This document shows positions 5,203 through 50,332 of a stretch of 64,000 nucleotides of DNA, piece after piece; position 1 is the first letter of the stretch; every line of letters starts with the position of its first letter. Both the position numbers and the translations under genes were made by a program. Location: NCBI GenBank assembly GCA_963920525.1, contig OY986436.1:178843361-178907360 (forward strand), in the 5' to 3' direction. This DNA comes from Dichetophora obliterata (taxonomy: Eukaryota; Arthropoda; Insecta; Diptera; Sciomyzidae). The notes below the pieces were generated by a model. It had not been told where the DNA came from. It ran no database searches and worked only from the letters and a program-made list of their open reading frames with translations.

Positions 5203-8200
5203 GTTTTTTAACATAAATTACTTAAATTAAAACAGAATAACTCTTAACTCCAAACTTCTTATTGCAGCTTGTAGTAATACTAAAATGGCTTAAGATAATC
5301 ATACTCACCATTGTGTGGTGCATATTCACAGTATTTTTGATGTTAGCCAACGAGCATGTCGAGACACCAAGATTATTGACCGTACCTGCAGAGACTAGCA
5401 GAGGTAAGATAAACATTCAGTAATTTTTGAAAACCTTCACGAACACCATTTCTCTGAATTATATTAGATATTTCAATAAGTGACTGGACATCAGGCAGCT
5501 TAGGCGTAACACTAAAAGGTGCATTTGTGCTGCATGAGACAGTTTATGACCTAGGTGATCGCGAAAGGCCTATCCTAACGCTTCAGTTGCAGCGTCTCTG
5601 CTATGACACAAAAGACACTTTGATATACACCCAGAATATTTCGGAAACATGGCAATTGGATCTTGCGAATGATATGGACTCTGCCAAAGAATTGACAGCG
5701 AAAAAATCGTTAGAAGTTAATGCCGATGACGATGATAAGAGCAAAGCGGCCCACTTAACAAGAATAGTCCTTCGGTTACAGACAAACATCGACGACGAAT
5801 TGCCGCTCCAGGTAACATTAAATCAAACACCTATTGATAAGAGAGAAGGTGTCATCTATGCGGCAATCGTGCTATGCGGGCTCTACATTATGATAATTTG
5901 GGATATAGTCCATCGCACATTTGCTGCTATGATTGCCTCATCGCTAGCGATTGGTATTTTAGCCGCCCTCAATGCTCGGCCCTCTATGGCAACAATTATG
6001 GGTTGGATTGATGTAGAAACTCTGTTATTGCTCTTTGGTATGATGATATTAGTGGCGATCTTGTCGGAGACAGGAGTCTTCGACTATCTGGCTGTGTATG
6101 CATACAAGGTATGTATCCCAGAGCTGCTAAATTAAAGAGTTTTTTCCACAAATATTCAGCAGTTGTCAGAATGTTGTCAGAGATTTTACAGATCTGATTG
6201 ATGTGTCTTCCAAGTCATATTTTTTATGGGAAAGTGGCTGTTTCATTAAGTTATCAAGAGTTATCTCGTATAAGATTGAAGTAGCTTTGAGCTTTTTGCA
6301 ATTTTTACTAAACTTTTAATACTTGCCAGATGCAACATTTTTTATAATGTAACATTTGAAGACATGAGTGGACGAAGGTGATATGCCGCAAGCAACCATG
6401 TTTGTGGCTATTTTAGAAAATAGCTTCTTCACAAAATTTGATTTAGTATAGTTTTCTCGAAATTAAAATTTTGCGACATATCACCTTCATCCACTCATGT
6501 CTTAATTTAGTTCAGTAATTTTTCTACCTTGACAATACACTCTTTCTTAACATGCTTCTCCATGTTATAATCACATAGATAGAGATTAGGTTAAAGGAAG
6601 ATTAATTTGCAGTTCCATTTTTGGAAAAGTGCAAAAAAATCTAAGAATAACTTAAAAACAGGTTGCGAAAAAATTTGTTCGCAATTGATTAAAATACAAT
6701 CTTCTTGTTCTCACCATTTCCCACCTCTTCATATGTAGGGTAGAACGGGGTAAAACAACCACTTTTGTGTTTGGCACTCTGTAAAAATTTTGTTTATGAT
6801 AATAATTTGAAAATTTCAACTGTTCATTGAACCGTTGGTTTAAAAATTCCTAAGAACATTTTTTTTCAAACTCGCATTGTTTATCCGGTATTTGCATTTG
6901 AAAAAAAAGTGTGAAATGGTTGTTTAACGCCACCAGGTAGGGTAAAACAACCAAACTTTCTATTTATAATAAAAGTGATCAACATTGTTACTTTTAGGCT
7001 TTTTATTTCATCAGAATTTTACAAAACGTTACAAAAGAACAAAATTAACTTGAAAAAGTTTCTCTGGAGCTTCATTATTTGCTAGCGTCACTTTCCTTTA
7101 CAAGGTATACTTTTCTTGGACGACCTCTTTTGGAGCGACGAGTATCATTTTTGGCTGCCGTGTCTTGGTTTTTTTGCTCAGAAAATTTCTTTAGAATCCT
7201 TTTTTCCGACCTTCGCATGGTTGCCAATGACTGTTTCTCCTTCTTCTTGGCCACATTTTCCTGCTCCTAGCGGAAAGTCTCCAATACAGTTTCGTCGGTC
7301 AACACCGTGGATTTTCTTTTTTTCCAGCCTCGAGTTGTTGTTTTTCTCGGTGCAGCTTTGGGAGGGGGTTGCAGATTCTCCAAAATTGCTTCCGCACTGA
7401 GGTTTTGCTCATCGTCATGTGTTTCATCATTGTGTGAAATCTTTTCTCTCTCCCCGTCGAATGCTTCCGGTATGCGGCTCCGCAAAACTGCTCTTGGCAA
7501 CTCATATTTGGCAGCAACAGCGAGCACTTTTTCGCCATTCTGAACTTCCTGAAGAGCTATTTCAATTATCTTCTCGTCTGGTTTGGGCGTCTTCCTCGCG
7601 CAATGACGTGGCATAATGCTAGAAAAAATTATAAGTTTTGCTACATTTTCATGTACATTAATAAGTGGTTGTTTTACCCCACTTGTTGACTGGTTATTTA
7701 ACCCCACTTGCTTCTATTTTTTTAAGACGGATAACTTTTTAACAAATTTAAATCTTGTAAAACCAATTACAGATTTGGATTCAGCATGTAATTCTGCTCT
7801 TAGAAAACATTTACCTTTCTTTCTGCACTTTACTGATTTGTGGAATTTTGAACTTTTGCCGACTGAAAATATCGCGGCGAGAACGCGTCAAATCTTTCTG
7901 TCGTCAGAACTCAGGTTATAACACACGTGCGGTAGTGGAACCTTTTGCCAAAGTTGCGTTGTATCGATCACTATCTGTTGTACCAACGGTCGTTCGATTC
8001 GACTTTATTAAAAAAAAAATAGAGGCAATTGGTTGTTTAACCCCGTTCTACCCTATATATTTAGAAATGGACGAAAAAATATTTGCTGAGTTTTGTTTTG
8101 GTACAAAAAAAATTCTTAGAAAGTTATGGCTCTGATTGCAATGATAGAACATTTTATTTTCTTGTTACCTTATGTAATGGAGATTGGCTCACGACTTGCA

Positions 8201-11200
8201 CAAAGCACTCCTTGCTAAGCTAGTGTCAAAACTCGTCAGTTTCGAATTTTAGAAATACATTCAATCAAATAAATCTTCGATTTTCCCTGCAGTTGACAAT
8301 TTGTAGGTAAAGGAATAAATGAATCTAACAATATTCATTATAGTCAAAACCAGTGCTGGGCATTTTGCAATTACAATTACTTTCTGATTACAATTGCAGT
8401 AATCGTAATCTATGAATATTAACAATAACAATGACTGTAATTGTAATGCAAAAAAGTATTATTACGATTACCGATCCATAAACACACAAATTACAATTGC
8501 GATTACTGTAATTCTAATCGTTATCAATGACATCGTTGATATCAGTAATCATTATCAATGAAAATTACATTTACGATTACTGTAACCGGAAACCGGAGGC
8601 AAACCTTAACAAGGTAGCAAGTCTGACTGTCTCAACTAACAAAACCCTTGTGAAATCGTCTCAAGCCGACTCAAACATCCATGTGGTGTTTCCTGGCAAC
8701 GTCAAAACTGGCATCAGTTATTTTGGCGGCTAATCTGAGCGGCGGGCCCCCCTAGGCTTAAAACAAGTTGTACGTCGGGTTTGAAGCCCACCCGTAAAAA
8801 CAATTTCAATGAAAACATAAGGATCTAAGAAAAATTATCCCCAAATCTGAAGACGACTACCGCAAACGAAAAACTGATAATGATTAAAGGATATGCACCT
8901 GGAATGTCCGAACTCTTAACCCTTTTATGAACGCATTGAAATGAGGTCAGAAATTTAATAATCATTTCTCAAATATGAGCTGACTAAATTTGTAAAGTCC
9001 TTGGCGCTTGGGTTCGTTAGTTACAGGGTGTTGCTTATTTGCAACGTTGGGCATTTATTGAACAAACTAAACATTTTTCTCATGATTGCTTTTTGTGAAT
9101 ATAACTCTCTTACCTTTATTTATTTATAGTGTGCACTTAGTTTTACAACCATTTTAATGTTTTTAAGCACTTTTTGTATATACACTTTTTTTGCAAGACG
9201 ATCCCGATCTTGATTTCGACCATTTTACTCTATGGAAAACAGCTACTGGATGCACCCGTGCAAAGCTTTCAATAGAACAAATAGCTGTTAGCTTGCACAG
9301 CGCATAAAGCTACATGATGCAAGAAATCACTGGTTAAAAAAATTAAAATGACGGGACTTAGAAGCCTATAAGTGCAATGTTGTTTATAAGCAACATTGCG
9401 CATGAAAGGGTTAATTGGGAATTGTTTATAAGAAATCTATCGAACTGACTGATGTCTTGAAAAGATACAAAGCTGATATCACTGCTATCCAAGAAATGCG
9501 ATAGAAGGGACAGGGTTGCATTCGGCATGCACCCTGTGATTTCTACTGCAACGTCCATGCGGAGAAGCACGAGTTTGGATGCGGATTTGTAGTTGGTCAG
9601 AGTCTACGGCCCAACGTCCTGCGATTCACACCTATGAACGAACGGCTTGCCATAATCCGCATCAAGGTTAATATAATTGTTTAATATAAACTTAATATAA
9701 TTCCTATGAGACTAAGGAAATTCTCTACGAGCGCCTTGAAAATGCTTACGAGCGCTGCCCCCGTCACGATGTAAAAATCGTGCTTGGTGATTTCAATGCT
9801 AAGGTGGGCAAGGAAAATATATTTGGTCCAACAGTCGGAAAGTTCAGCCTCCACGACAACACCTACGATAACGGAATGAGGCTGCAGCACGCAACATGGT
9901 CGTAAGTAGCACTAGAAGTAGACTAGAAGCATCTCAATATTCATACAACCACCTGGATGTCCCCTGATCAAAAAACCAAATTAATCACTTTTTGATCTAC
10001 GGAGGGCACTCTGGAAGAGTATTGGATGTACACAAGATCCATGGTGCAAACATTGACTCGGATCACTATCTTTTCGCAGCCAAGATTACATGCTAAGAAT
10101 GCACGCAACCCCGTACAGAGAAAGCTAGACGTTGAAAAGCTGCAATCAAAACAAACAGCCAAGCTTACGCCACTCGACTCTCACTCCTGCTTCAAAGCAC
10201 TCTTCCGATCGATGGTATCGGGTTAAGCCATCTTAATATCGCATATAAGGTCCTGTCGAGCGTTTTATGTGAAAGATTGAAGCCCATTGTAAACGAACTG
10301 ATCGGACCTTATCAGTGTGGCTTTAGACCTGGAAAGTCCACCATCGACCAGATTTTCGCGCTACGACAAATCTTGGAGAAGACTCAAGAAAAACAATTCG
10401 ACACCCACCATCTTTTTGTCGACTACAAAGCCGCCTTCGACAGCCCAACAAGAAAGCATCTGTACTCCACCATGTCTGAATTTAGTATTCCTGCAAAACT
10501 AATACGATTTTGCAGAATGACACTGAGCACGAGGTTTCAAACAAGGTGATTCCTTATCGTGCGACTTTTTCAACCTACTGATGGAGAAGATCTTAGCTGA
10601 TCTCAGACATAGTGGCACAATATGCTGCTTGCGTATGCTGATGACATCGATATCATTGGCCATAATACGCGCAAAGTGAGTGCAGCATTCTCCAGATTAG
10701 AAAGAGAGTCAAGTCAAATGGGTTTGGTAGTGAATGCAGATAAGAAGAAATACTTGGTGTCATCAAACGAACAGTCCCAGCGTCTGGAAACCCACTTTAC
10801 ACTTGAAAATACCTCCTTCGAGGTTGTGAAGGACTTCGTTTGTCTGGCATCCAGCATAAGCTCAACCAACGACAGCAGAGTCCTCTCTCGGCGAACGAAA
10901 ATCGCGATCTATAAATCGCTCATCATGCCCGTCCTACCTTATGCATCACTGACCTGAACGCTGAGTAGTTCAGATAAAAAGACTTTCGAAGCCTTCGAGA
11001 GAAAGATTCTTCGTAAGATCTACGAACCAATCTGCGTCAATGGCGAGAACCGAATACGGTGGAATGATGAACTGTACGAGCTGTACGCTGACATCGACAT
11101 AGTCAAGCTGAATATAGGTCATGTTCAGCGTATGAAAGACGATGCTCCAGTGAAGAAAATATTCGATTCGGTACCCAGCAGCGGTCAACGCAGAAAAGGA

Positions 11201-14200
11201 CGACCCCATCTTCGTTGGAAAGAGCAAGTAGGGGACAACCTGACGAAGCTTGGATTTTCCAGTTGGTTCCGGCAAGCGAGACATTTTTTTTATTAAGATA
11301 ATAGTTGTCTTTGTTCTTCAAAATTACAATTACAGTTACTGTAATGTATGTACTGTAAAAAAGAAAACTGCAGAAAAAATTATTCCAAAACTATATAAAT
11401 TTTTTTATTTCGAACAATATGTTTTTTAAGTGATATAAATCAAAACGAAGTCAATAATTAAGAATTTATGAATTGATACGAGCGAACAACAATTTAAAAA
11501 TTATTATTTGAAACATTTCAAATCAATATTTGCCTTTAATTAGACTAATTTTTTAAATGAGAAATCAGAAAGAACGTTTCGTCATAAACTTTTCACTATT
11601 CACTATCACGGTGTGATGAATTATTTTTCATCAGAATATATTCCATATGTGTTTCGGTTTCGACACACATTATTCAGAATGGTTTAAGTCGAAAATAGCT
11701 CCAAAATGACCTATAATTTATTTCCGCAATATCTAGCTAGAGGTCAAATATATTTAGGTCTTAAGGCAATTTTATTCTCCTTAGGAATGGAACTTTCAGA
11801 AAATGGACACACACTGAAGTATTTTAACATTTTTGCAAAGTAACTAGTCTGGAATATTGTTATTTAAACGTGCCCGCAAGTGACTTTAAAGTTGAAAATC
11901 TGGTAAAAAGGTTCTCTTTTTACCAAAAAAAAATCGCTATTACTCGTTATGAAGTATGAATTCGTTTTTCAATTTATTTTTCTGCAAAAGGTGTTATTAA
12001 ACGTGAAAATTAGACAAAAACTATCAGAGTTGTGGTTTTTTTATTTTCGAAAAAAATCAAATTTTTTCTTATTCTATTCAAAAAAATCGCTAAAATCTAA
12101 ATAGGACAGTGTTTGAATAAATTGCAGAGGAAATATTTTCTGAAACTATGGCTAATACTGACGCAAAAAATGGTGCGATTACGTTCAACATGGTCGTTAT
12201 GAAAGTTTTTCCTAGAAGTGTCGAGAAAATTTTGAGTCTGAGTTTTTCGTTTCGTTTCGAATCGTAAAACAAGGTGGCACAGTTTTTTGTTTTACAACGT
12301 ATCTGCATTCAAATTTACGCCTCTCCGCAAGGCAGCTGTAGTAGATATCATTGTAGTAGATAGTTGAGAGTAGCCTTGTAATTTCCATCGCATCTTCTGG
12401 ATGGCGGTGATATCAGCCTTTATTTCGAGGGCTTCCGCCACCTAAAAGCTTCACCAACCACCAGTAGGGGAAATCTTTATAGTTTCTGTTAAATTCATAA
12501 TTATGTTTTAAAAATAGTGTCTAAAAAATAAGTCTAAACCCTTTGTAAGGCCGTGTAATAGAACTGTAACAAACCGAATAAGTTAGGGGTTGATCTAAAA
12601 ATAGCTACTGCTTTAAATGTCATATGATTAAGTGGCCGATGAGAACGTTAAAATTCTTACGAATTTGTTCGAACAGGTATCAAAGCATATAAGACTTTAA
12701 CAGTGGGTTAGTCGCAGCTGAATCACTCAAGACTACTGAAGAGAGGAAATGTAGCAATTTCCAAAATAGGCTTTCTAGTCTGCTGTGTGATTGACTCTAT
12801 ACAGTGTTTTTGTTGCCTTCTTCAAACTTACTTGATCTCACAATTAAATCATGTAAAATTTCAAGGAATAGATCACAATTAATAAAGAATAAGTTCCTAC
12901 TTAAACACTTCATGGTCCATTTAAACCAAAAAATAATTTAAGTCAGAGAGGGAAAAACTACTTGAGTTTTTTTACTAATCATATAAAGTTCGTATTTGTA
13001 AAAATAATATGTGATCAAAGAATTATGTGCAAAAAACAGAAAATTAAACAGAATAAATACAAAATATTGTGATAAGATCAATACTGAGTAAAGTGTTCTA
13101 AAAATTGATTGAATTAGCTAAACACATGTTCACAATTTTAAAAAAAAACGAATTTTTAGCCCAAAGCGTGTTCAGAAATTTTGTTGTGTTTCTCGTTTCT
13201 TTTAAAATAAAATCCGAATAAATTGAACATATATGTTTTCAATTTGGTTTTTCTTATTAAAATCACTATTTTTATCAATTTAAATGTTACATTTCGAAAA
13301 ATAAGCACATGCCATATAAGGGTTAAACATTTGAATGAGCATTCGTAGTTTGTCTCATATTGTCTCATCAGGTCCTGTAGAGAGAATGTATTTAATACTT
13401 TTTTGTCTGCATTAATGCTGTAATCTTTTTCAAATCTTCCTCTACTGAAGTTAAATTAATTGAATCGTCACCAATCTTCATTTCATTTAATACTTTTTTT
13501 ATCTCTCTCTTTTCAATACTAGATTACAAATGGGCATATTTGGCCGCTTATAAATTGCCTTTGCATATTTACCGCTGTACTCTCTTCTTTTTTGGATAAT
13601 GTAACGACGGTGCTGCTTATGACACCTGTGACAATACGTCTCTGTGAGGTGATGACTATAAATCCGGTGCCGATATTGATGTGTATGATTATCTACTCCA
13701 ATATTGGTGGTGCACTGACACCAGTTGGTGACCCACCAAATGTTATAATTGCTTCAAACAGTTACATATCATCGAACGTAAGAGTGTTGGGAATAGTTTT
13801 AATTAAATAAAACAAATAACTTTTCACTTTTAGGGCATTAATTTTACTGTTTTTACGTTGCACATGCTGCCCGCAGTCCTTTTGGTCATGTTGACAACTT
13901 ATATTCAGATACGTATTATATATCGTGACCTAGGCAAATTGAAGTTTAAGGACTCTGCTGAAGTGGAAGATTTGAAACACGAAATCAAAGTGTGGAAACG
14001 TGCCGCTCAAAGTATGTCCATCTATTCGAAGGACGAAGATCATATGCGCGATACACTGCTTAAGAAGGTGAATCGCTTGAAGCGCAACCTCGCAAAGTCG
14101 ATGAAGACAAGTTCACAGCCGGCACCAAACTATCAGGAAACGCTGGATCAACTGCTGATCAAGGTAAGTTGGAGATTTTTTTAAAAGGGTCATGATCACA

Positions 14201-17200
14201 AATAATAGTTCACCTCTCTTAGTATCCGATACGCAACAAGGTTTTGCTCATCAAAAGCGGTGTGGCTTTGACCTTCGTCATCGGTTTGTTCTTCCTGCAT
14301 TCTATACCTGCATTTCAGCGTGTGTCCTTGGGTTGGACTGCGCTCTTGGGTGCCATATTGTTGCTCATTCTGGCCGATATCGAAGATATTGAAACCATTT
14401 TGGCACGCGTAGAATGGTCTACGCTGTTGTTCTTTGCGGCGCTATTCATTCTTATGGAGGCTCTTGCGGAATTGGGTCTGATTGAGATGATTGGACGCAT
14501 GACTGAAAGCGTTATCTTAGGTGTGGGCACAGAATCACGACTTATGGTAGCGATTCTATTGATACTCTGGGTGTGTAGATTCTTGATACATCTCCATCAA
14601 GTTTTTATTTTTAATTTTTTAATGAACAGGTTTCTGCTATTGCATCAGCTTTTGTGGACAATATTCCCTTGACCACAATGATGGTGAAAGTAACCATATC
14701 ACTAGCTCAGAATGAGACGCTGGACTTGCCGTTGCAGCCTCTAGTTTGGGCACTTGCCTTGGGTGCTTGTCTGGGCGGTATGTAGAAATGAGTTACAAGG
14801 GGCATTCGATACAAAATTTGCCACCAACATTTTTTTGTTCATACAGTTTTTTATGGTTTATTAGTCAACAATATTTGATAAGTATTTTTTATTTCAATAT
14901 AAAACAAGGAGTTTTGCAAAAAAAAATTTTTTTAAACTAACGATTTAAAAAAAATTGCTTTTTTCTATCGCTTACACTGCAATAACTGATGAAGATAGAA
15001 AAATTTGTCTTAAGGAAGACTAGTGCGCCTTTTTCTTAGCCTTCAAATGATGTTTACTTAAACTTAATCATATTATTTTTTTTGCGAAAAATAGAAATTT
15101 GCAACAAATTGTTTTTATTTTAATTGAAACCCAAGTTTTTTTTTTTTTTTGTTAAAAATAAAAGTCAAAACATTATTCTTAATACAGGTAGAATTTAAGA
15201 GTGGATACTTGAATACTTACGGAGCAATGAATTTTTCACTACTAACTTATACGTGCGAAGCGTACCGCAGCGTGCTTTTCTAAACTTGTTTATTTGTCTA
15301 AACTTGTCAGTTTAATCTAATCTCCTAATTTCTAATCTCCTTGATTTCACTACATTCTGCTTAAAATCTATTGATTCTGGTAGCCAGGTCGATTGTATTT
15401 ACACTGATTTTAGCAAAGCTTTTGATAAATTACCACATAATCTAATTTTATTTAAACTTAAATTAATGGGATTCTCACAATATTTTGTAAACTGGATCAA
15501 ATCGTATTTGATGGAGCGATCTTATCAAATACGGTTCCGAGGCGTGTTGTGTTTTTGAATTTGTTGCAGAATCGGGTGTTCCTCAAGGAAGCCACCTGGG
15601 CCCACTTCTGTTTATTTTGGCAATTAATGATGTTACCCACGTCATTAAACACTCTCATTTGCTTATTTATGCAGATGATATGAAAATATACAGAACAATT
15701 GATTCTAATGACAATTCAGACCTGCTCCAGTCAGACTTGAACTCTTTTGAGGTTTGGTGTTCTAAAAATAACATGTTTTTAAATCCAGATAAATGCCAAA
15801 CTATGACCTTTTCGCGTAAAAGGAACAATTTTATTTTTGATTACAAAATTAAAGATACTGCTTTAAGTCGTGTAACTACCGTCAAAGACCTTGGTATATG
15901 CATGGATTCTAAATTGTCGTTTAACATGCATATTGATACAATTTGTAAAAAAGAGTCTTCTATGCTTGGTTTTATAAAACGGTGGGCCAAAGAGTTTGAT
16001 AGCTTAATAACAACTACAACTCTGTATTATTCAATCGTGCCTCCTCACTTGGAGTACGCAAGTCAAGTATGGTCCCCACATTACAATGTGCATGTTGATC
16101 GTATAGAAAGAATTCAAAAACGTTTTGTTCGGTTTGCTCTAAGAGGCTTGAGTGGAACTGACACATTTAACCTTCCTCCATATGAGGATCGTTTGAAATT
16201 ATTAAAAATGCAATCTTTAAGTGAGAGAAGAAAATCTGCTGAAATCGTCTACTTACACCAACTCATTAATGGTGTATTCGACTCTCCAGAGCTTCTTTCT
16301 CTTGTAAATTTTAACACTAACCGTAGAAGCAGTAGAAACTCTAACAACTTGATTTATTTACCATTTAGTAGAACAAATTATATGTTAACTGCTCCATTAA
16401 ATCGCATGAATACCTTCGTTAACAACTGTAACGTGTTTGATGTTAACTTGTCGAAAGGTCAACTCAAAAGTAGATTGAAAACTAATGTATGATTAGATCT
16501 ATGTAAACGCATGGTTAGTTGTTATGTCTTGTGTTGTCCCTGAGCCCAACCCATATTATGGTGGGTAAATTTTTCTCCCTTTTGGTTTTTTATTGGACCA
16601 CTTTTATCGATATCTTTGAGTTATTTCAATGATATTGGATTGGTTCTTAAAATGATCTATTGCGGAGAAAGTGTGAAAAAGCTGTAGTAGCTGAACTCTA
16701 TTGTTATTGCATGTTTTGTAAAAAAAAAAGTTTATTGTCTACTAGCTGAAACCCGGCGCGTTACTGCCACGCTCCCTTGCATGTGTAAATTGAAGTCGAA
16801 TACTGAGTTCCGACGCTGTGCGACAAATAACTCAGAATCTATTCGATATCGCAAATTTGGGTTGTATGGGAGGTGTCACTCTCCCTTGTCCAACGCCCAA
16901 AAAATGTTACCAATGAAAGTGCATGTGTAAATTCGGATTGAATACTAAATTCCGACGCTGTGCGACCTATAATTCCAAAGCTATTCGGTAGCACAAATCT
17001 GGGTTGTATGGGAGATGCCAGTCCCTGAATACTGAATTCCGATGCTGTATGACCTGTAACTCCAAAACTATTCGATATCGCAAGTTTTGGTTGTATCGGA
17101 GGTTCCACTCCCCCTTGTTTAACTCCCATAAAATGTCAACATGTGTAAATTGTGGTGCAATATCGAATTTCAAGGCTGTGCGACCCATAACTCCAAAGCA

Positions 17201-19863
17201 ATTTGATATCGCGAATTTTTTATATATTTGTGGGCGGTAAAAGGGGGTGTGGCAATTTTTTCTTAAACCATTTCGTACTCGAAACAAATCCACTGCCAAA
17301 ATTTTAGCTCGATCGGGCCATTAATTTCGAAGTCTCTTTATCTTTTTTGAAAGTAGGCGTAGCTATAGTGGGACCACGCCCATTTTAAGTATAGTTACCG
17401 ATAGTTATCATACGAATTTAATTACCAAAATTTAGTTTAATACGACAAAAACTGTCTAAAATATAGCTTTTTTATTGATTTGTGGGTGCTAAAAGAGGGC
17501 GTGGCAAATTTTAAATATGCCTATATTGTCCGCGTAAGTGCAAGCAATAAGTTGACAAAGTTTTATAGCAATCGGATGAACGGTATTGCAGCGCATAGCA
17601 AACGAACAAACAAACATTCATTTTTATATATTGGGATTGCTAAAAACGTTCTGGTGACGTTGTCAGAAATGTCGTGTTCTAAATTCAAAGACCGCTGTTG
17701 CAATCTATTTGGCGTGAAAAATTCATTGCTCCCTTAGCATTCAAGTGTCCACTCTTAAATTGTACCAGTATTAAGAATAATGTTTTTGCTTTTATTTTTA
17801 ACAAACAAACAAAAAAAAATTCGGTCTGGCCTTAGGAGCCTTCCGAACAACTCCCATTACAAACATGCAATTCGAATCCAATATAATGCCAATCCGGAAA
17901 AGGACAGAATTCATGATTGCTAAACTATTCAAATCACTGTTAAATGGTCATAATTCTCCCTTAACTAAAATAATTGCTACGAGAAAAATTTCAAAAATAC
18001 CACAAAAAATCCCATCATTAGTTAATAAAACAATTCAACTGTGTGAAAAATTCGGAATTCCTTCTAACCCCTTAAAACCACCAAATAGTAGACACCCACC
18101 TTGGCTGCTAACCGCTTCCACTATAAATACATCCCTTCGAAAATTCCACAAACCTTCTATTTTTTTTCAATGCAAATTCCGTGAAATTAAAGAAAAGTTA
18201 TCCAAAGTTTCTATTATATACACCGACGGCTCTAAATCAGTCAACAACTGCAGCTTCAGTATAACCACAGAAAATAGTATTATTAAAATATCACTTCTAC
18301 CAGATTATTCCACTACATTCTCCTCAGAAATAATAGCCATCCATGAAGCTATAAATACGCTCTAAGCCAATCTTCCAAATTTGTAATATGTACCGATTCA
18401 CTATCATCACTGGACGCCATAAAAAACTTAAACAATCACGAATACTACCCATCTCTTATAAGAAACATTCTTATCGATTACTTCCCAAAAATAATACTAA
18501 TTTGGATACCATGCCACGTTGGTATACCTGGCAACGAATATGCCGACTTTGCTGCTAAATTTGCCGGCAAAGCTCCCCTCACGTTAACTGAAAACCGCAA
18601 TAGTAAAGATATTATTCGCTTTTTAAAAGATCACTATAATTCAAACCACACCCTATCTTGGCGACATACATCACAATGGTACCAACAAATAAACACGAAC
18701 AAAATCAACATCAAAACATTCCTTAAAATTAACCTCATAGACCGATTATCCAGAAAAGACCTAATAAAATTCGAACGCCTAAGACTTGGCCATACCTCTT
18801 TAACTCATAGTCACCTTATTGATCCTCAAATCTCCTCTTTATGCCCATATTGCAACACAAATTCTCCTATTTCCTTACTACACATTCTCAATGATTGTCC
18901 ACATTTCAATAACTACAGAATAAGCATTTTCCATAACACTGTTCCCACGTCCTTACTACCTTTCCCTACTGTACAAAATATAACTAAAATCGTTACGTAT
19001 CTCAAATGTTCCAATATTTTTTTACTTATTTAATGTTTGAATATGTAGTAATGTACTCTTCTATTATTGTATTACTTTATTATTATTAACTTTCAATTTA
19101 CTGAAATATCTATGATTTGATTTAATCTATAAGCTGAAGGCCATTGTTGCTATTGCTTTCCCTTCTTAATTAGTTTTTTAATTTTAATTATAAGCTAATT
19201 TGTTTTAAATAAATAAATAAATAAATAAATAAATTCGGTCAAAATTAAAAAAAAACCGATTTGTTGCAAATCTCTATTTTTCAAATGAACTTTTTCAAGT
19301 AAATTAAAAATTTTTTGCAAAACGCCTTGTCCTGTTTCGTATTGAAATAAAAAAATACACATCAAATTTTTGACTTATGAACCATAAACTTAATTAATTT
19401 TTTTGGGTCAAAAAAATGTTGGTGGCAAATTTTGTATGGAAGGCTCCATATATAATGTTGTTGTTAAATTGCTCATTGCCAATCCTTCCTTCTTTCAGGC
19501 AATGGAACACTTATTGGCGCCTCAGCTAACGTTGTTTGTGCAGGTGTTGCCGAGCAACATGGATACAAATTTACGTTCCTACAATTCTTCAAGTGAGTTG
19601 AAATGGTATTTTATTAGTTAGTTTAAAAAAATAAAAAAATAATGTGCTTGATGTGTGCCGCCTTATAAAGAAATTAAATAAGCTTTTGAACTAAGATATA
19701 TTTCAGGAATAGTAAATTGAAATAGTTTTTCCATTTTTAATTCTTATCCTTGCCTTTGCTGTATATTTTCTTCAACAGAGTGGGTTTCCCCATCATGATA
19801 ACCAGCATCATCTTCAGCACGTTTTACCTACTCATCGCTCACGTTGCTTGTTCGTGGCATTGA
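5145..19863 (+). CDS. hoe: P protein / OCA2 homologue (hoepel family), nine visible exons, 5' end not found
   Basis: Exons are 5145-5202, 5268-5403, 5468-6108, 13523-13777, 13834-14163, 14223-14570, 14630-14777, 19499-19592 and 19779-19863. All have GT/AG borders and compatible phases, giving about 698 residues to a TGA stop. The protein belongs to the ion-transporter (ArsB/NhaD/SLC13-type) fold of the human OCA2 P protein, a melanosomal anion channel. Drosophila has two copies, hoe1 and hoe2; I cannot say which is the orthologue. Visible features are a first membrane helix in exon 2, a large loop with a NIS sequon in exon 3, and the paired family motifs [13 protein letters not shown] and [29 protein letters not shown] and [14 protein letters not shown] follow. 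No frameshift or stop was seen. Upstream exons and the start codon are missing or lie left of the window. Confidence 0.9.
5268..5403 (+). CDS. hoe: P-protein exon 2: first transmembrane helix
   Basis: TTATTGCAG precedes it and GTAAGAT follows. The translation starts [17 protein letters not shown] and runs as one hydrophobic span, followed by a polar segment ([11 protein letters not shown]) that begins the lumenal loop. It ends with one base of a split codon. Confidence 0.85.
5468..6108 (+). CDS. hoe: P-protein exon 3: lumenal loop and membrane helices
   Basis: The exon has 641 bases and restores phase at its donor (AAG|GTATGT). It encodes the loop with the sequon NIS, then [19 protein letters not shown] and further helices. 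It ends in [25 protein letters not shown], a segment strongly conserved in P proteins. Confidence 0.92.
6359..6503. repeat. 145-bp MITE in P-protein intron 3
   Basis: The ends are 33-bp inverted repeats differing at about two positions, starting AAGACATGAGTGGA. No clear target duplication was found. Confidence 0.6.
6736..8055. mobile_element. Non-autonomous pogo-like element, 1.3 kb, TA-flanked
   Basis: The ends are TAGGGTAGAACGGGG and its complement, with TA at both outer edges. The motif GGGTAAAACAACC, or a near variant, recurs inside both termini (about 6939, 7667 and 7692). These look like sub-terminal transposase-binding repeats. The element lies in P-protein intron 3 and contains an internally deleted minus-strand transposase remnant. 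Assignment to pogo/Tc1-mariner rests on the TA duplication and the helix-turn-helix protein. Confidence 0.7.
7075..7614 (-). pseudogene. Internally deleted pogo-type transposase remnant
   Basis: The frame starts [20 protein letters not shown] and continues with an N-terminal Psq/CENP-B-like helix-turn-helix region ([19 protein letters not shown]). A stop follows FR at 7267. The same strand then continues with a basic tail containing the AT-hook-like KRGRPRK before a stop at 7075. The whole DDE catalytic domain expected between these parts is absent. The relic therefore keeps DNA-binding parts but cannot transpose itself. Confidence 0.6.
8351..8585. repeat. Low-complexity repeat of TTACAATTAC-like words
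   Basis: Imperfect repeats of ATTACAATT/GATTACTGTAAT run through this stretch. Related sequence resumes at about 11318-11350, just after the RTE insertion. The RTE may have landed in an older element of this kind. The left edge reads CAGTGCTGGGCA, which resembles a hAT-type end, but no matching right end was found. Confidence 0.4.
8590..11290 (+). mobile_element. Degenerate RTE-clade LINE (endonuclease and reverse transcriptase)
   Basis: The order is CTWNVRTLN at about 8896, then an AP-endonuclease region 9430-10090 ([38 protein letters not shown]). The reverse transcriptase region is 10230-11280 ([63 protein letters not shown]). Motifs and spacing are those of RTE elements. Stops and frameshifts are frequent, the region between endonuclease and RT is deleted (about 10200), and the 3' tail is missing. 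It sits in P-protein intron 3 on the gene's strand. Confidence 0.85.
8920..9410. repeat. piggyBac-like MITE (TTAA) inside the RTE endonuclease
   Basis: TTAA flanks it at 8916-8919 and 9411-9414. The ends are CCCTTTTATGAACGCA and its near complement TGCGCATGAAAGGG. Near-copies of GTTGCTTATTTGCAACGTTG occur inside both ends (about 9030 and 9380). It splits the RTE endonuclease just after the TWNVRTLN motif, so it is younger than the LINE. Confidence 0.75.
11351..13522. other. Rest of P-protein intron 3, mostly unrecognised
   Basis: AT-rich DNA with no supported open frame. The only recognised piece is the RTE fragment at 12310-12450. Confidence 0.5.
12310..12450 (-). pseudogene. RTE endonuclease fragment
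   Basis: The reverse strand reads [19 protein letters not shown], matching the endonuclease motif of the RTE at 9465. It is a short 5' fragment with no intact frame beyond about 40 residues. Confidence 0.6.
13523..13777 (+). CDS. hoe: P-protein exon 4: first DN-TT signature
   Basis: The exon has 85 codons between a pyrimidine-rich acceptor and GTAAGAGTG. It holds [19 protein letters not shown] and [18 protein letters not shown], the most conserved stretch of the family, thought to line the transport path. Confidence 0.93.
13834..14163 (+). CDS. hoe: P-protein exon 5: helix and long charged cytoplasmic loop
   Basis: The exon has 110 codons. After [17 protein letters not shown] comes a charged region ([30 protein letters not shown]) typical of the central cytoplasmic loop. 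It is preceded by CTTTTAG and followed by GTAAGTTGG. Confidence 0.9.
14223..14570 (+). CDS. hoe: P-protein exon 6: second half of the transporter core
   Basis: The exon has 116 codons with several helices, including [34 protein letters not shown] and [20 protein letters not shown]. The donor is GTGTGTAG. Confidence 0.92.
14630..14777 (+). CDS. hoe: P-protein exon 7: second DN-TT signature
   Basis: It encodes [20 protein letters not shown], the inverted-repeat partner of the motif in exon 4, then reaches LGACLG with one spare base before GTATGT. The downstream intron is filled by a giant foldback element. Confidence 0.92.
15330..16495 (+). pseudogene. CR1/Jockey-type LINE reverse transcriptase fragment
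   Basis: Translation gives [18 protein letters not shown], then after a frameshift near 15560 [25 protein letters not shown] and [12 protein letters not shown] long thumb/C-terminal region runs to a stop at 16492. The core RT motifs including YADD are present, but the 5' half of the element is missing. The clade is not resolved between CR1 and Jockey groups. A relative lies on the minus strand at 62460-64000. Confidence 0.8.
16741..17640 (+). repeat. 'ACTAGC' interspersed repeat with internal tandem units
   Basis: It starts ACTAGCTGAAACCCGGCGCG and ends in a T-rich TTTTATATATTGGG tail. About three diverged ~120-bp units (GCATGTGTAAATT, CTATTCGATATCGC, TTGTATGGGAGGTG) precede a second block with GGGCGTGGC. 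It is homologous to 41021-42432. Such non-coding tandem-bearing elements may be non-autonomous rolling-circle (Helentron-like) elements; that is inference. Confidence 0.6.
17827..19230 (+). mobile_element. 5'-truncated I-clade LINE with RNase H, inserted in the foldback arm
   Basis: The duplication AAATTCGGTC flanks it (17817-17826 and 19231-19240), and the 3' end is an (AAAT)n run. The translation begins LGAFRTTP (end of RT). Next comes an RNase H domain ([52 protein letters not shown]), then a C-terminal cysteine-rich tail with CPYCNTNSP...LHILNDC. A frameshift at about 18362 breaks the frame. An RNase H domain downstream of RT points to the I superclade. Confidence 0.8.
19499..19592 (+). 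CDS. hoe: P-protein exon 8: [13 protein letters not shown] motif
   Basis: The split glycine codon joins exon 7 to [20 protein letters not shown], another family hallmark. The acceptor is TTCTTTCAG and the donor GTGAGTTG. Confidence 0.9.
19779..19863 (+). CDS. hoe: P-protein terminal exon and stop codon
   Basis: A split lysine codon joins exon 8 to [19 protein letters not shown], the last helix, then a short tail ending in TGA at 19861-19863. The acceptor is TTCAACAG. Confidence 0.88.
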
Positions 19864-27867: not shown

Positions 27868-28461
27868 GCTATACTTTTTTTTTAATTCTCTGGTGCTTTA
27901 ATTCATAAATAAAAAGCCTGTGCAAGGAGAAAGTCCACAATTGATTTCTTCAGGTGGCGCCACGCCCTAGAATGTCCGCATATCGTAAAAATTCGACTTT
28001 TTCGTAGTTGTTTGATAAATACTGATCTCTATAAAAGCGTATGCTCTGAAGATCAGTGAAACAATTTTTTTATTACTAAAGTATATGTGACTATGTGAAA
28101 AAAAATCGAAATCATAAATATATATACAATTCAATTTTTCAGGACAACATTTTTAATAGATTTTAGAAGAAAATATTTCAAATTCGTGAGAATATTGCAC
28201 TTTATATTTATGATTTCGATTTTTTTCACAAAGCCTACAGATACTTCAGTAATAACAAAAATTGTTTCACTGATCTTCAATGTATACGCTTTTATAGAGA
28301 TCAATATTTATCAAACAACTACGAAAAAGTCGAATTTGGACATCGAAAAGTCGAAAATGCGGACATTCTAGGGCGTGGTGCCACCTGAAGAAATCAATTG
28401 TGGACCTTCTGCTTGCACAGGTTTTTTATTTATGAATTAAAGCACCAGAAAAATGCTATAA
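27868..28461. repeat. Long foldback, arms about 250 bp each
   Basis: The left arm (27868-28130) and right arm (28195-28461) are inverted and highly similar. Shared words include GGTGCTTTAATTCATAAAT, ATTGATTTCTTCAGGTGGC, CACGCCCTAGAATGTCCGCA and ATCGAAATCATAAATAT. The loop is only about 60 bp, so a transcript would form a long hairpin. Confidence 0.75.
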
Positions 28462-29904: not shown

Positions 29905-30290
29905 TTATTAGTCTATCATCTATCTATACTATCTAGCTATCTATCTATTAGGGCGGGTCAAATTCTGGCTCAGCGAAATTCGTAAAATACATGTAATTTC
30001 AAGACTTTTTCTCCACTACAGCATACACAAATTCTGAAAAAAAGCTGTGCGGACTTTCGTAAATAGATTCATACACATACATTCATACATTCATATTTTA
30101 TAATTGAGAACAAAATCTATTTACGAAAGTCCGCACAGCTTTTTTTCAGAATTTGTATATGCTGTAGTGGAGAAAAAGTCTTGAAATTACATGTATTTTA
30201 CGAATTTCGCTGAGCCAGACCACCAAAAAATTCGTCCATACAAATTGACCCGCCCTACTATCTATATATCTATATATCTAGCTATCTAAT
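29905..30290. repeat. (CTAT)n microsatellite interrupted by a TA-flanked foldback
   Basis: CTATCTAT units lie at 29915-29950 and resume at 30256-30290. The foldback 29951-30255 was inserted between them. Confidence 0.75.
29951..30255. repeat. Mariner-like foldback MITE with nearly identical arms
   Basis: TA at 29949-29950 and 30256-30257; ends GGGCGGGTCAA and TTGACCCGCCC. The internal arms 29964-30069 and 30114-30219 are both 106 nt and differ at about one position by eye, which suggests a young insertion. Confidence 0.75.
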
Positions 30291-41020: not shown

Positions 41021-42432
41021 ACTAGCTGGAACCCGGCGCGTTGCTGCCACGCCCCCGTTGCCAAACTTCCATAAAATGTTATCAGTGAACCTGCATTGGG
41101 TTGATCTAAATTTGGGTTGAATGAGAGGTGCCACGCCCCTTTGTTTAACTCCCATAAAATTTGATTAGTGAAACGGCATGTGTAAATCGTGGTAGAATAA
41201 TGAATTCTTAGGCTATAACTTCAAAGCTATTCGATATCGAAAACAGCACGTGTAAATTGTCGTCGAATACTGAATTCCGGGGCTGTGTGAATTAAAACGC
41301 AAAAGCTATTCAAAATATTAAATGTGGGTTTTAAGGGAGGTGCCAAGCTCCCTTTCCCAACGCCCATAAAATTTTATCAGTAAAACGGCACGTGTAAATT
41401 GTGGTCGAAAACCCAATTCCATGGCTGTGCGAACTATAACTCAAAAGCTATTCGATATCTCAAATTTGGGTTGTATGGGAGGTGCCACGCCCCCTTGTCC
41501 AACACCATAAAATGTTATCAGTTAAACTTAATGTGTAAATTGAGTTCGAATATTAAATTCCGAGCCTGTGCGGTCTGTAACTAAAAAGCTATTCGATATC
41601 GCAAATTTGGGTTGTATGAGAGTGCCACGCCCCCATTTTTTCTTTCTGTAAAAAACGTTTGTAGACTATTACAAACATTTTAAAAAAGTTAGCCAAATTG
41701 GCGCAGGCGTTCTGCGATTTTAGGTATATATAAAAAAGTGGGCGTAAAAGTGGGAGTGGTCAATTTTTCTTCAGTAAAAACTTAAAATGGATTACTACGA
41801 ACATTTAAAAAATAAATTAGCCAAATCGGTGTAGCCGTTTTCCGATTTTAGATAAATAAAAAAGTGGGCGTAAAAGTGGGCGTGGTCAATTTTTCTTTCC
41901 GTAAAAACTTAAGTTGGACTATTACGAACATTTTAAAAAAATATCCAAATCGGTCCAGCCGTTCTCAACTGATGCAATTACCAACGAACGACATTTGATT
42001 TTTATTTATATAGATATCAAAACAGTGGGCGAAAAAGTGGGCGTGGTCAATTTTTCTTTCAGTAAACACTTAAATTGGATTACTACGAACATTTGAAAAA
42101 AAATTATCCAAATCGGTCCAGCCGTTTTCCGATTTTAGATAAATTGAAAAAAGTGGGCGCAAAAGTGGGCGTGGTCAATTTTTCTTTCCGACAAAACTTA
42201 AATTGGATTACTATGAACATTAAAAAAAAATTATCCAAATCGGTCCAGCCGTTTTCCGATTTTAGATAAATCAAAAAAGTGGGCGCTAAGTGGGCGTGGT
42301 CAATTTTTCTTTCCGTAAAAACCTAAGTTGGACTATTACGAACATTTAAAAAAAAAATTATCCAAATCGGTTCAGCCGTTCTCAACTGATGCAATTACCA
42401 ACGAACGACATTTGATTTTTATTTATATAGAT
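41021..42432 (+). repeat. 'ACTAGC' repeat with two tandem-unit blocks
   Basis: It starts ACTAGCTGGAACCCGGCGCG. Block 1 (41060-41640) has about five ~125-bp units around AAAGCTATTCGATATC and GGGAGGTGCCACGCCCC. Block 2 (41735-42432) has five ~120-bp units around AGTGGGCGTGGTCAATTTTT and CCAAATCGGTCCAGCCGTT. The closing phrase CAACTGATGCAATTACCAAC followed by TTTATTTATATAGAT occurs twice (about 41968-42014 and 42387-42432). That suggests two elements fused or an internal duplication. Confidence 0.7.
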
Positions 42433-43036
42433 TTTCTTAAATTGGTAGCTTTTGAAAAGCTCAGAGACTTAAAAGCAAGAATTAGCTGGCAGCTTAGAAG
42501 CTCAAAAACTAATTAATTTTATTTTGAATTTGTTCTTCCTTTTATACTATACATAACAGTACTTAGTCTTAAACTAGTTAACAATTGTTTGTGTATTTAA
42601 AAAAATGTAAACATAGTCCTATGTTCCTTAATTAGTGTAGGAGCAAAGTAAAATATAATAATCATATGTTTGTAACTAAGCAATATCAATGTAATGTGTG
42701 TGAATGAAATAGATGCTAGTACTGAGCATGAACATATGTTTAATTGTTTGAATGTTCTTAATGTTATTTCTATACACTAAAATAAAATGAGGGTTGCATA
42801 CCGTAAAGGTGTGTAACCTATTACTTTATTTAAATATTTTGCTTATTGTTGTTTGTTTTAATGATATTGTTAATATTGTTAATGTTATTTAAGTATAAAA
42901 TAATTGAATGTAGTTCATACCGTAATGGTGTGTATCCTGCAACATTGTTATAGGCTATCTATTTAAGCTCCGATCCCAAGATAAAAAATAGAATACCACA
43001 AGATAATGTAGTCCGACCCGGAAATATAGGGAAAAA
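42433..43036. other. Unrecognised AT-rich DNA
   Basis: GCATACCGTAAAGGTGTGTA and TCATACCGTAATGGTGTGTA occur as a diverged pair at 42795 and 42915. No gene was seen. Confidence 0.4.
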
Positions 43037-43162
43037 GGATTACTTGAAAGCCAAGCGAACAAAAAAACTTAACCTGAATCTGAGGATCTGAACTTAAAAG
43101 GATTACTTGAAAGCCAAGCGAACAAAAAAACTTAACCTGAATCTGAGGATCTGAACTTAAAT
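43037..43162. repeat. Exact 63-bp tandem duplication
   Basis: GGATTACTTGAAAGCCAAGC begins each unit (43037 and 43100) and the two units look identical. The unit length is a multiple of three, but no gene is evident. Confidence 0.85.
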
Positions 43163-46500: not shown

Positions 46501-46926
46501 GCCCTCTACACAAAAACATATCTAATACCACGTTCATACTACGGCATACATTACATAATTTGCTGTAAATTACTTCACTTAAATCAACTGCGTTCAAACT
46601 AGCTGTTCGTAATTTGTTTTGACAGTTCGTTGGCAACTCATATATTTGCTTATTTTGTGGCAAAAGTAAGTAAAGCAAAGAAAGTAAATATGCAATCGCA
46701 AGACATTAAAGTGAATTTAAACATTTTTTGTTTTATATAGCATGTCCGACCAGGAAAAAGTGATGTTACCACTATTTTCAATTTTTATATATATATATAC
46801 TGTCCCACTATGTACTTAAAATAAAAAAAAACAAATCAAAAGTTCCATAGTTGCTTTTAAATTTTCAAAATTCTATACTGTAACATGTTGGTTATCTTAT
46901 TGCCTTTCCAACGAGATTTAATATGG

Positions 46927-47561
46927 TTAATGTTGAACGAAATGGGAGCACTTTGTATGACAGCAGAAATATATATGGGAATCAGTGCACATAACTTCGA
47001 GCGTTTGTTTAAGCTCACATCCTGCACGTACTCTTTAAATTTTCCCGGTTGTGACAAGTCAATAACCTTTGATGTAGAACGACACACTTGTGTTAGTCCC
47101 AGCTGGCCAGCATCAAATACACCCCCTAGTTGAGGCCACAACGACGAAAATTCTTCAACATTCAGACTAATTGGTTCGCTGAACGATTTGCGATAGTCAG
47201 AGCTAATGGATGCTCATAGCACAGCTGATGAATGGATTAGAATTTGGGAATACGAATACCAATTTTTCTAGTACTTGGATTGAGGACGATTGCTTAAGTT
47301 ATGTGAACGTTCGATAACTATCGTTCTGGATCCCGGCAGCAAACGTTTCAAAAACGCATCGTTTATATGCTCAGCTTTACCATAGTAACGAAGAGCAGCC
47401 AAGGCTTTCACGCAAATTGCCACTGGTTTATGACAGTCTTGTCCTTTGATTTCATACAACTTTTGTATGGCCTTCTCATTGTTGGCATTGCAGGCTAGAC
47501 CATACACAGTGTCGGTTGGTAGAGCTATAACTTCGCCCAATTGTAAGCAACTTCGTGCTTG
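46927..47561 (-). pseudogene. YRDC: YRDC (threonylcarbamoyl-AMP synthase) pseudogene
   Basis: The minus strand reads GEVIALPTDTVYGLACNANN, KPVAICVKALAALRYYG and LLPGSRTIVIERS. Another frame continues LNPSTRKIGIRIPKF, then PLALTIANRSA, then SLNVEEFSSLWPQLGGVFDA and SKVIDLSQPGKFK, then RVRAGCELKQTLEV. Together these cover the YrdC/Sua5 domain, which makes threonylcarbamoyl-AMP for tRNA t6A37. At least three frameshifts and a stop inside PKF*S inactivate it. No intron interrupts it. Its 5' side is joined directly to the POLR3K remnant. Confidence 0.85.
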
Positions 47562-47916
47562 ATTACAGCATTTTTAAAATGTGGTCATAGGTTCATCAGC
47601 AGGGCGAGTTTGCATTTGCATAAAATAAGTATGTTTTTGTGAGCACAAGCCGGACAATCAGCATCAGTTGAATCTACGATCTCCCAAGCAGCTGCACCGC
47701 CCATAACATGATCCACTTCCTATAACATTGCAGGAATAATAATAATATTTAGTCTCAAACACTTGGATCACTACTCACCTTTAGCCGTAAGGTACGTGTT
47801 GAAATGTTTTAATTGATGTTGCAAATTTAAGGACATGTATTGCATGAAAAGCGATGACCTGTTGTATCTTCCTCTACCATTAAAATATTACCGCAAGTCG
47901 GACAGAACAGCAAAAT
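47562..47916 (-). pseudogene. POLR3K: POLR3K (RNA polymerase III subunit, RPC10/C11) pseudogene
   Basis: Exon 1 (47916-47779) reads LLFCPTCGNILMVEEDTTGH and RFSCNTCP, the N-terminal zinc ribbon. A 59-bp intron (47778-47720, GTGAGT...TTATAG) follows. Exon 2 gives EVDHVMGGAAAWEIVDSTDA and CPACAH and, after a frameshift, TYFMQMQTRPADEPMTTF and KCCN. This covers the subunit except the last nine or so residues with the final zinc ligands. Damage: the initiator ATG is ATT, two TAA stops lie in exon 1, one frameshift lies in exon 2, and the C-terminus is replaced by YRDC sequence. Retention of the intron rules out a simple retrocopy. Confidence 0.88.
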
Positions 47917-48237
47917 ATTTTTGTGAACTTTGAGTTTTGGTTATTTACAAAAATGACAGCTTGTGATGCGATTTCATCGATTATTTATCGAAAAAACTAG
48001 TGCTGACACCGATTGCATCTTAATTTAAATGGTAATTTATGATAAATTACTTATTTTCGAAGTAATTTCATTGACATTTTTTCCACGGCGAAATTACTTA
48101 ATTTGGACATGATTTATGCATAAATTAAGAATGAGCCGTAAATTACGATAGTGAGAACATGGTATAAGTCACTGATGTCACTAATAACCCAGTGGTGATT
48201 GCATAACATGTAATGTCACCAATTATTTCCTGAATAC

Positions 48238-49714: not shown

Positions 49715-49855
49715 TCTGCATTATTCTGTATCACGAAGAAGCACACCAACAATGAGAAAGACACGAGAAGCAATACTTTCTTCCATACAAAATTGTATTG
49801 CTTCTCGTGTCTTTCTCATCGTTGGTGTGCTTGTTCGTGATACAGAATAATGCAC
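49715..49855. repeat. Hairpin MITE A, TTA duplication
   Basis: TTA at 49712-49714 and 49856-49858. Arms of about 61 nt, sharing GAGAAAGACACGAGAAGCAA and GCATTATTCTGTATCACGAA, differ at only a few positions. The loop is about 20 nt. Confidence 0.8.
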
Positions 49856-49858
49856 TTA

Positions 49859-49998
49859 GGGCATTAATCTGTATCACGAAGCAGCACACCAACGACAAGC
49901 AAGACACGAGAAGCAATACTTTTTTCTATACGAAATTCTATTGCTTCTCGTGTCTTGCTTGTCGTTGGTGTGCTGCTTCGTGATACAGATTAATGCCC
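49859..49998. repeat. Hairpin MITE B, adjacent to A and sharing its TTA
   Basis: TTA at 49856-49858 (also the right duplication of MITE A) and 49999-50001. The arms of about 60 nt look perfectly complementary, starting GGGCATTAATCTGTATCACG and ending CACGAGAAGCAATA. This is the youngest-looking copy of the family. Confidence 0.82.
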
Positions 49999-50332
49999 TT
50001 AGTTTCTACTTACAGTTCTGCATTACAATGCCATCACCGACAAATTTTTACAGGCGGGAATAGTAATGGTGTTTTCATATAAATATCTACTCAAAGCAAA
50101 TAGAGAGGGATGCTTTCATATAACGAACTTATTTTTAAGCCAAGAAGTATGCAATCATTTTCAACAATTTTTTTCGTTCACCAAAAACCGAACGATGAAC
50201 TACGAAATTGTAAATAATTAACAAAAATAACATTAAAGTATGACAGAAGTTATGCATGCAAATGCATTATGAAACAGCAAAACCATAACTAAGTACAGGC
50301 GGCCATAAAAGCAAGCAGTAAAAGGTTGACAG

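Follow-up and report, generated by a model that had tools for sequence, protein, structure and literature searches.

A multicopy Pack-type transposon, probably of the PIF/Harbinger superfamily, carrying a captured POLR3K-YRDC unit in Dichetophora obliterata

The window, a 64,000-nucleotide stretch of Dichetophora obliterata DNA that was analysed as a whole, contains at positions 46526-48164 a degenerate copy of two host genes, POLR3K and YRDC, fused between short inverted ends. How did the two genes come to be joined there, and what kind of DNA carries them? We argue, with a probability of about 0.95, for a non-autonomous Pack-TIR transposon of the PIF/Harbinger superfamily that carries a captured POLR3K-YRDC unit. 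The window copy is one member of a repeat family in its genome. It is not settled how cut-and-paste transposons of animals acquire genes, and most published cases are single copies. In this one genome the donor survives intact alongside a relative of the parental type, one copy that has changed little (L091), intermediate lineages and the products of a recent burst; all are linked by one junction, so that the capture borders and the order of the damage can be read directly.

Structure of the window copy

The window copy was 1639 bp long; relative to the family consensus of 1,686 bp it had lost 47 bp on balance. TAA was read directly on both sides (46523-46525 and 48165-48167), as target-site duplications. 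The left terminal inverted repeat (TACCACGTTCATACTACGG, 46526-46544, plus strand) was placed by comparison of copies, and the right one (TACCATGTTCTCACTATCG when read inward) occupied 48146-48164 on the minus strand. The first-pass annotation had reported TACCA.GTTC ends with TAA outside each, and both were present. Within the inverted ends, 14 of the first 20 bases paired. Taken alone, these ends and the duplication did not stand out from chance, 71 of 126 random region pairs having an equal or higher score, and the borders therefore rest on full-length copies elsewhere in the genome.

The left arm of the PIF/Harbinger element (46526-46768, plus strand; the inner boundary is approximate in the window) carried ATGTCCGACCAG, with an ATG at 46742. 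This plus-strand feature was considered as a third captured host gene and rejected: the PIF relative described below has the same start, on its transposase side. Between the left arm and the end of YRDC lay about 220 bp of unplaced internal sequence (46769-46988). The unplaced segment of the consensus (244-480, about 240 bp) gave no convincing match to the relative, to the native locus or to the rest of the window (best E 0.013), and is possibly filler DNA from a third place.

The cargo was read on the minus strand. The YRDC pseudogene (46989-47558), identified by alignment to the native gene and by Pfam family PF01300, ran from native codon 46 to near the C-terminus and was 92% identical to the native locus (L047:1602-2176); its open frame at 47268-47573 matched PF01300 at E 4.9e-23. 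At the fusion junction (47558-47560, minus strand), POLR3K codon 100 met YRDC codon 46 with a 1-bp (A) overlap. POLR3K exon 2 (pseudogene, 47559-47719, minus strand; human RPC10 match and native alignment) was followed upstream in the gene by a retained intron of 59 bp (47720-47778, minus strand), the same length as the native intron, and by exon 1 (47779-47916, minus strand), in which stops stood at native codons 30 and 36. The POLR3K read-through matched human RPC10 over 97 residues (E 1.6e-40). A minus-strand POLR3K that keeps its 59-bp intron and continues after KCCN into YRDC in the same frame, as proposed at first reading, was thus borne out by this match, by direct reading of the frame and by the junction seen in the native alignment. 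Compared with the native genes, the window copy was degenerate: the ATG had become ATT, four premature stops and several frameshifts were present, and identity was 90% in the POLR3K block and 92% in the YRDC block.

Beyond exon 1, 15-20 bp of the native POLR3K 5' leader (47917-47935, minus strand) formed the right capture border; the alignment with the native locus began 15 bp before the start codon, and copies, Myb-bearing relatives and the native gene were compared. The right arm (47936-48164, minus strand) corresponds in relatives to the leader of a Myb/SANT gene, and contained AAATTAC motifs at 48032, 48044, 48062, 48091 and 48140. A search of the window against Rfam at gathering scores gave nothing.

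The native gene pair and the origin of the junction

An intact POLR3K-YRDC locus, for which the first-pass annotation had suggested a search, was found on contig C3 (L047) with a Rhagoletis YRDC protein (P0008), of which residues 15-250 were covered with no stop. It contained POLR3K, which encodes 108 aa and has a 59-bp intron, and, after a gap of 35 bp, YRDC, which encodes 249 aa. Among the matches listed (149 of 501 candidates scored), only this locus covered YRDC unbroken, the others being shorter or broken. The native YRDC protein was 52-71% identical to the named proteins among the matches listed, with a best overall value of 72%. A dicistron should present two frames, both intact and on the same strand, with little DNA between them; the native locus shows this arrangement and the transposon copy does not. 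The Drosophila dicistron CG33785/CG33786, named at first reading, is in print, with both frames on one transcript (PMC2276209); as described there, it resembles the native locus in having a 108-aa transcription-type frame upstream of a translation-type frame. That pair is an intact host unit, whereas the element described here bears a fused pseudogene copy on a transposon.

The family consensus was 95% identical to the native locus over 355 columns (POLR3K with its intron) and 94% identical over 611 columns (YRDC). The two native blocks met at one point. A 197-bp deletion had taken away the end of POLR3K (8 codons and the stop), the 35 bp between the genes and the start of YRDC (45 codons), and left the frames joined; this accounts for the missing POLR3K C-terminus and YRDC N-terminus noticed at first reading. 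The capture borders, read from three less damaged copies, lay 15-20 bp upstream of the start of POLR3K and some 20 bp beyond the stop of YRDC.

Two other origins of the fused block were weighed against transposon capture. The element could be a retrocopy of a partly spliced read-through POLR3K-YRDC transcript, with KCCN as a splice junction. It is favoured by two annotated proteins in which POLR3K and YRDC are fused, one from Anopheles culicifacies (P0001, where the join directly follows KCCN) and one from the longhorn beetle Exocentrus adspersus (P0070); the Anopheles protein had prompted us to consider a splice origin of the KCCN junction. That origin was dropped, since native POLR3K has no intron after KCCN, where it reads KCCNQLCGHNWRD and then a stop; a search for exon-2 fragments, for the mapping of introns, found nothing. 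The existing 59-bp intron is also kept in the element, the duplications are of 3 bp, the ends are transposon ends, and neither the intron loss nor the long target-site duplication of a processed retrocopy was seen, which makes this origin highly improbable. The structure of the native gene refutes it, save for an unannotated splice form that joined exactly these two points. The two annotated fusions may be true ones or gene models in which the dicistron was merged, and suggest that the POLR3K-YRDC neighbourhood is old in insects.

In the second origin, the native locus underwent a segmental duplication or a local rearrangement, and the terminal repeats arose by chance. The kept intron fits it, as does the weakness of the window copy's terminal repeats when these are scored alone. 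Homology to the 3.7 kb around the native genes, however, lay only inside the element, at positions 234-1176 of the 1639 of the window copy (minus strand); it did not extend past 46526 or 48164, and the parts of the element outside the gene block had no match within these 3.7 kb, so that the element lacks the native flanks. Against it stand also the numerous copies scattered through the genome with the very same borders, the TWA duplications and the empty sites (below). The borders common to the copies and the TWA duplications refute this reading, to which we give practically no chance.

Copies, insertion sites and PIF/Harbinger relatives

The window element was searched against its own genome (1,312,693,994 bases, 76 contigs), which gave at least 74 matches (40 of 543 candidates scored). 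Matches to full-length copies started and stopped exactly at the borders of the window copy. For comparison, 38 copies were fetched (39 rows including the window copy), and the consensus was built from these 38, with the window copy left out. The termini common to the copies were 19-bp imperfect inverted repeats, with 13 of the first 19 bases pairing in the consensus. Copies began with TACTACGTTCATACTACGG or TACCACG... on the left and ended with CGATAGTGAGAACATGGTA on the right, with scattered substitutions; on the left, most fetched copies read TACTACG... An end was absent or unclear in 8 of the 39 rows. Flank counts were made on the 31 two-ended rows: 26 had identical 3-bp flanks (13 TAA and 13 TTA), 3 had TAA on one side and TTA on the other, and 2 were otherwise different. 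The flanking sequences differed from copy to copy and mark distinct insertion sites. The exact right end followed by TWA occurred at 137 genome places (reversed control: 0), some of which were Myb-bearing relatives.

Empty sites were sought for about 29 copies, by comparison of their joined flanks with the window and with the loci fetched by then. For five copies (L013, L027, L031, L038 and L046), the joined flanks aligned with contiguous empty sites (142-203 columns, 83-93% identical), in which TWA stood only once at the join. The partners were related repeats, located in the window or elsewhere among the loci fetched. The partner of L031 had a 13-base gap shortly before the insertion point, and the partner of L013 read TTA where L013 has TAA. 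The joined flanks of the window copy itself gave no spanning match in this comparison, and matched two different repeats. The window also contributes on the other side of this comparison: its repeat at 9773-9962 was the empty-site match for L031, which lies on contig C6.

A 23-mer spanning the POLR3K-YRDC junction was found, with up to 2 mismatches, at no fewer than 227 genome places, and its reversed control at 0. A junction so widely repeated makes one founder likely, which would be the simplest account of the common junction. The element seen at first reading is real, and it belongs to a family with this junction at 227 places instead of being a lone copy.

Relatives without the cargo connect the family to complete PIF/Harbinger elements. 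At L067 and L087/L090, the exact right end and the right arm were present with no POLR3K. Just inside its right arm, L090 carried a frame that is spliced and no longer intact, in which a Myb/SANT-like domain was recognised (PF13837, E 1.4e-12). A search with the L090 Myb region (40 of 349 candidates scored) gave at least 8 places, itself among them, at which identity was 84-100%, and further ones at about 75%; in many of the other rows the match was confined to the last 76 bases of the query. The best place apart from the query was a parental-type relative of 2,839 bp on contig C3 (161542313-161545151), with TTA on both sides and a left terminus identical to the majority form of the Pack family (TACTACG...). 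Its Myb-like frames, homologous to L090 at 94% DNA identity, lay on one strand, and transposase frames converged with them from the opposite strand. A transposase frame matched PF13359 (DDE_Tnp_4) at E 1e-15, and the upstream (first) transposase frame, tested alone, gave no significant Pfam match. The right arm of the Pack consensus (1463-1686) was 96% identical to this relative and 86-92% identical to L089/L090. Its left arm (1-243) was only 80% identical to the relative, which is therefore not the direct parent. The POLR3K start in the Pack element lay approximately at the Myb start position of the relatives, so that the cargo sits behind the element's leader.

AAATTAC occurred 8 times in the terminal 120 and 200 bp of the consensus, where 0.18 would be expected (0 of 2000 simulations reached 8), and was absent from the 1,366 interior consensus bases. 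In zebrafish Harbinger3_DR, a Myb-like protein binds a 9-bp subterminal motif (PMC9710019); AAATTAC parallels this motif and is a putative site of the same kind.

The TWA duplications, the inverted ends and the relative with DDE_Tnp_4 and Myb genes support assignment of the family to PIF/Harbinger, as judged from sequence features. The first-pass annotation had named a PIF/Harbinger-like MITE as the capturing element. MITEs in the strict sense measure up to about 500-600 bp and carry no cargo. Capture by a non-autonomous PIF/Harbinger element stands, and the term MITE does not: the consensus, at 1,686 bp and with gene cargo, represents a 1.69-kb Pack-type derivative. Host DNA was found between transposon ends, with the donor elsewhere and multiple copies at distinct sites, which places the family among Pack-TIRs. 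The native locus, the TWA duplications, the empty sites and the transposase-bearing relative together bear out the earlier proposal of a Pack-type capture with the intron retained.

The capture can be pictured as follows. Genomic DNA with the presumably dicistronic POLR3K-YRDC unit took the place of the interior of a PIF element some 2.8 kb long, possibly by template switching or gap repair. As its structure shows, the element lost its transposase and Myb bodies and kept about 243 and 224 bp of its ends. The 197-bp deletion, itself observed, welded the two reading frames. Relatives elsewhere may supply transposase and Myb protein in trans, acting on the termini and on the AAATTAC-rich subterminal repeats, with AAATTACTT repeats as candidate sites for the Myb domain. 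The element would have spread in this way by insertion at TWA (the insertions are observed), and its cargo probably decayed as a passenger.

A nested insertion was noted in one copy (L092, C1:195895200-195902000), where another element interrupts the Pack element at 59 bp from the right end. The inserted element had 9 bp repeated on both sides, and contained one frame that we take to resemble a hAT transposase.

Decay of the cargo and relation to known systems

Of the 39 rows, 35 diverged from the consensus by 1.07-3.71%. The other four (L018, L019, L046 and the window copy) diverged by 5.8-8.7% and had diagnostic bases in common. The window copy thus belongs to a more diverged minority of the fetched copies, most others deriving from a more recent burst. 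A tree was built from 60 copies and the native gene; duplicates, loci with a Myb gene or truncated, the short L059, and the copies L060 and L092 did not enter it. L091, which keeps the ATG and the lysine at codon 36, adjoined the native gene in this tree (support 0.765, very short branch). The stop at POLR3K codon 36 was present in 56 of the 60 copies and absent in L063, L064, L069 and L091. A one-base gap near the YRDC end was found in 56 of the 57 copies that cover it, L091 included and L045 excepted. The first-pass annotation had placed the decay after capture; the copy is degenerate, but not all of its damage followed insertion, the codon-36 stop and the YRDC-end gap being common to copies.

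Among the 35 young copies, pN/pS was 0.89 for all differences and 0.75 for unique changes, and arms, intron and exons diverged alike (1.4-1.8%). Measured from the family ancestor along 14 lineages, pN/pS was 0.54-1.34. Damage mostly common to the copies and a pN/pS of 0.89 support the view that the captured genes would be passengers. Could the fused frame have worked as a chimeric gene for a time, kept by selection before the burst? The fusion is in frame and POLR3K starts near the Myb start of the relatives. Between the native gene and the family ancestor, 18 synonymous and 12 non-synonymous changes give a pN/pS of 0.19, by rough arithmetic somewhat below that of a neutral stem. This path includes the constrained native branch, for which reason the value is at most a weak hint of early constraint. 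The near-universal YRDC-end gap and codon-36 stop, and the ratios along the 14 lineages and among young copies, weigh on the other side, and such a working chimera seems quite improbable.

The copies might also be a source of antisense or small RNA acting on the native POLR3K-YRDC transcript. Their abundance and their identity of 90-95% with the native pair would suit this role; the sequence gives no sign of transcription, and we consider it unlikely. The two ideas can be combined: a founder chimera would have been expressed behind the Myb leader and kept, and, once it had decayed, its 200-odd copies would serve as a small-RNA or decoy reservoir against the essential native pair. This is a long shot. 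If true, it would amount to a transposon-borne conflict with the host over its tRNA supply, through the genes for RNA polymerase III and tRNA t6A synthesis.

Passenger cargo in a Pack-type transposon, the reading preferred here, has known counterparts. The survey of Tan et al. (2021; PMC8277862) reports 370 Pack-TIRs in 100 animal genomes, mostly hAT and TcMariner. Almost all are single-copy, with four multicopy cases, and no Pack-TIR at all was reported from the insect reference genomes; Ssk-FB4 of Drosophila melanogaster is described with four copies in fly populations (PMC8277862). As in the Pack-TIRs presented there, host gene DNA lies between cut-and-paste transposon ends with a distant donor, and, as in the multicopy cases, each copy has its own target-site duplication; unlike them, the present family is PIF/Harbinger and has a fused two-gene junction at 227 places (PMC8277862). 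Pack-PIFs are known in maize and rice, where one maize group comprises 72 Pack elements (PMC8903248). The family here is like these in its PIF ends, TTA/TAA duplications, acquired DNA and multi-member clusters; an example given from maize has a 163-bp acquired region, whereas here a nearly complete two-gene unit is carried in a fly (PMC8903248). Insect autonomous PIF/Harbinger elements have short inverted ends, a 3-bp duplication and a transposase plus a Myb/MADF gene, to which the relative corresponds; the Pack element differs as a non-autonomous derivative with neither gene body (PMC9710019).

For a high-copy insect Pack-PIF or a transposon-borne POLR3K-YRDC, no example was found in the open-licence literature, which does not prove absence. 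What sets the family apart is its unusual copy number, the superfamily and the fused two-gene cargo, the Pack-TIR kind itself being already known. It shows that in an insect a two-gene unit, almost complete, can travel inside a PIF element and reach at least 227 places.

Other features were noted in the window. Self-comparison revealed long, foldback-like inverted repeats with arms 82-92% identical (27886-28452, 29964-30219 and 49717-50003). Open frames at 5458-6132 and 13523-14669 presumably belong, as exons, to a gene for a P/OCA2-type transporter that has a long intron. Tandem arrays at 41240-42380, whose diverged units repeat every 126-142 bp, were related to 16779-17218. A 63-bp unit was present in two perfect tandem copies (43033-43161), probably a recent duplication.
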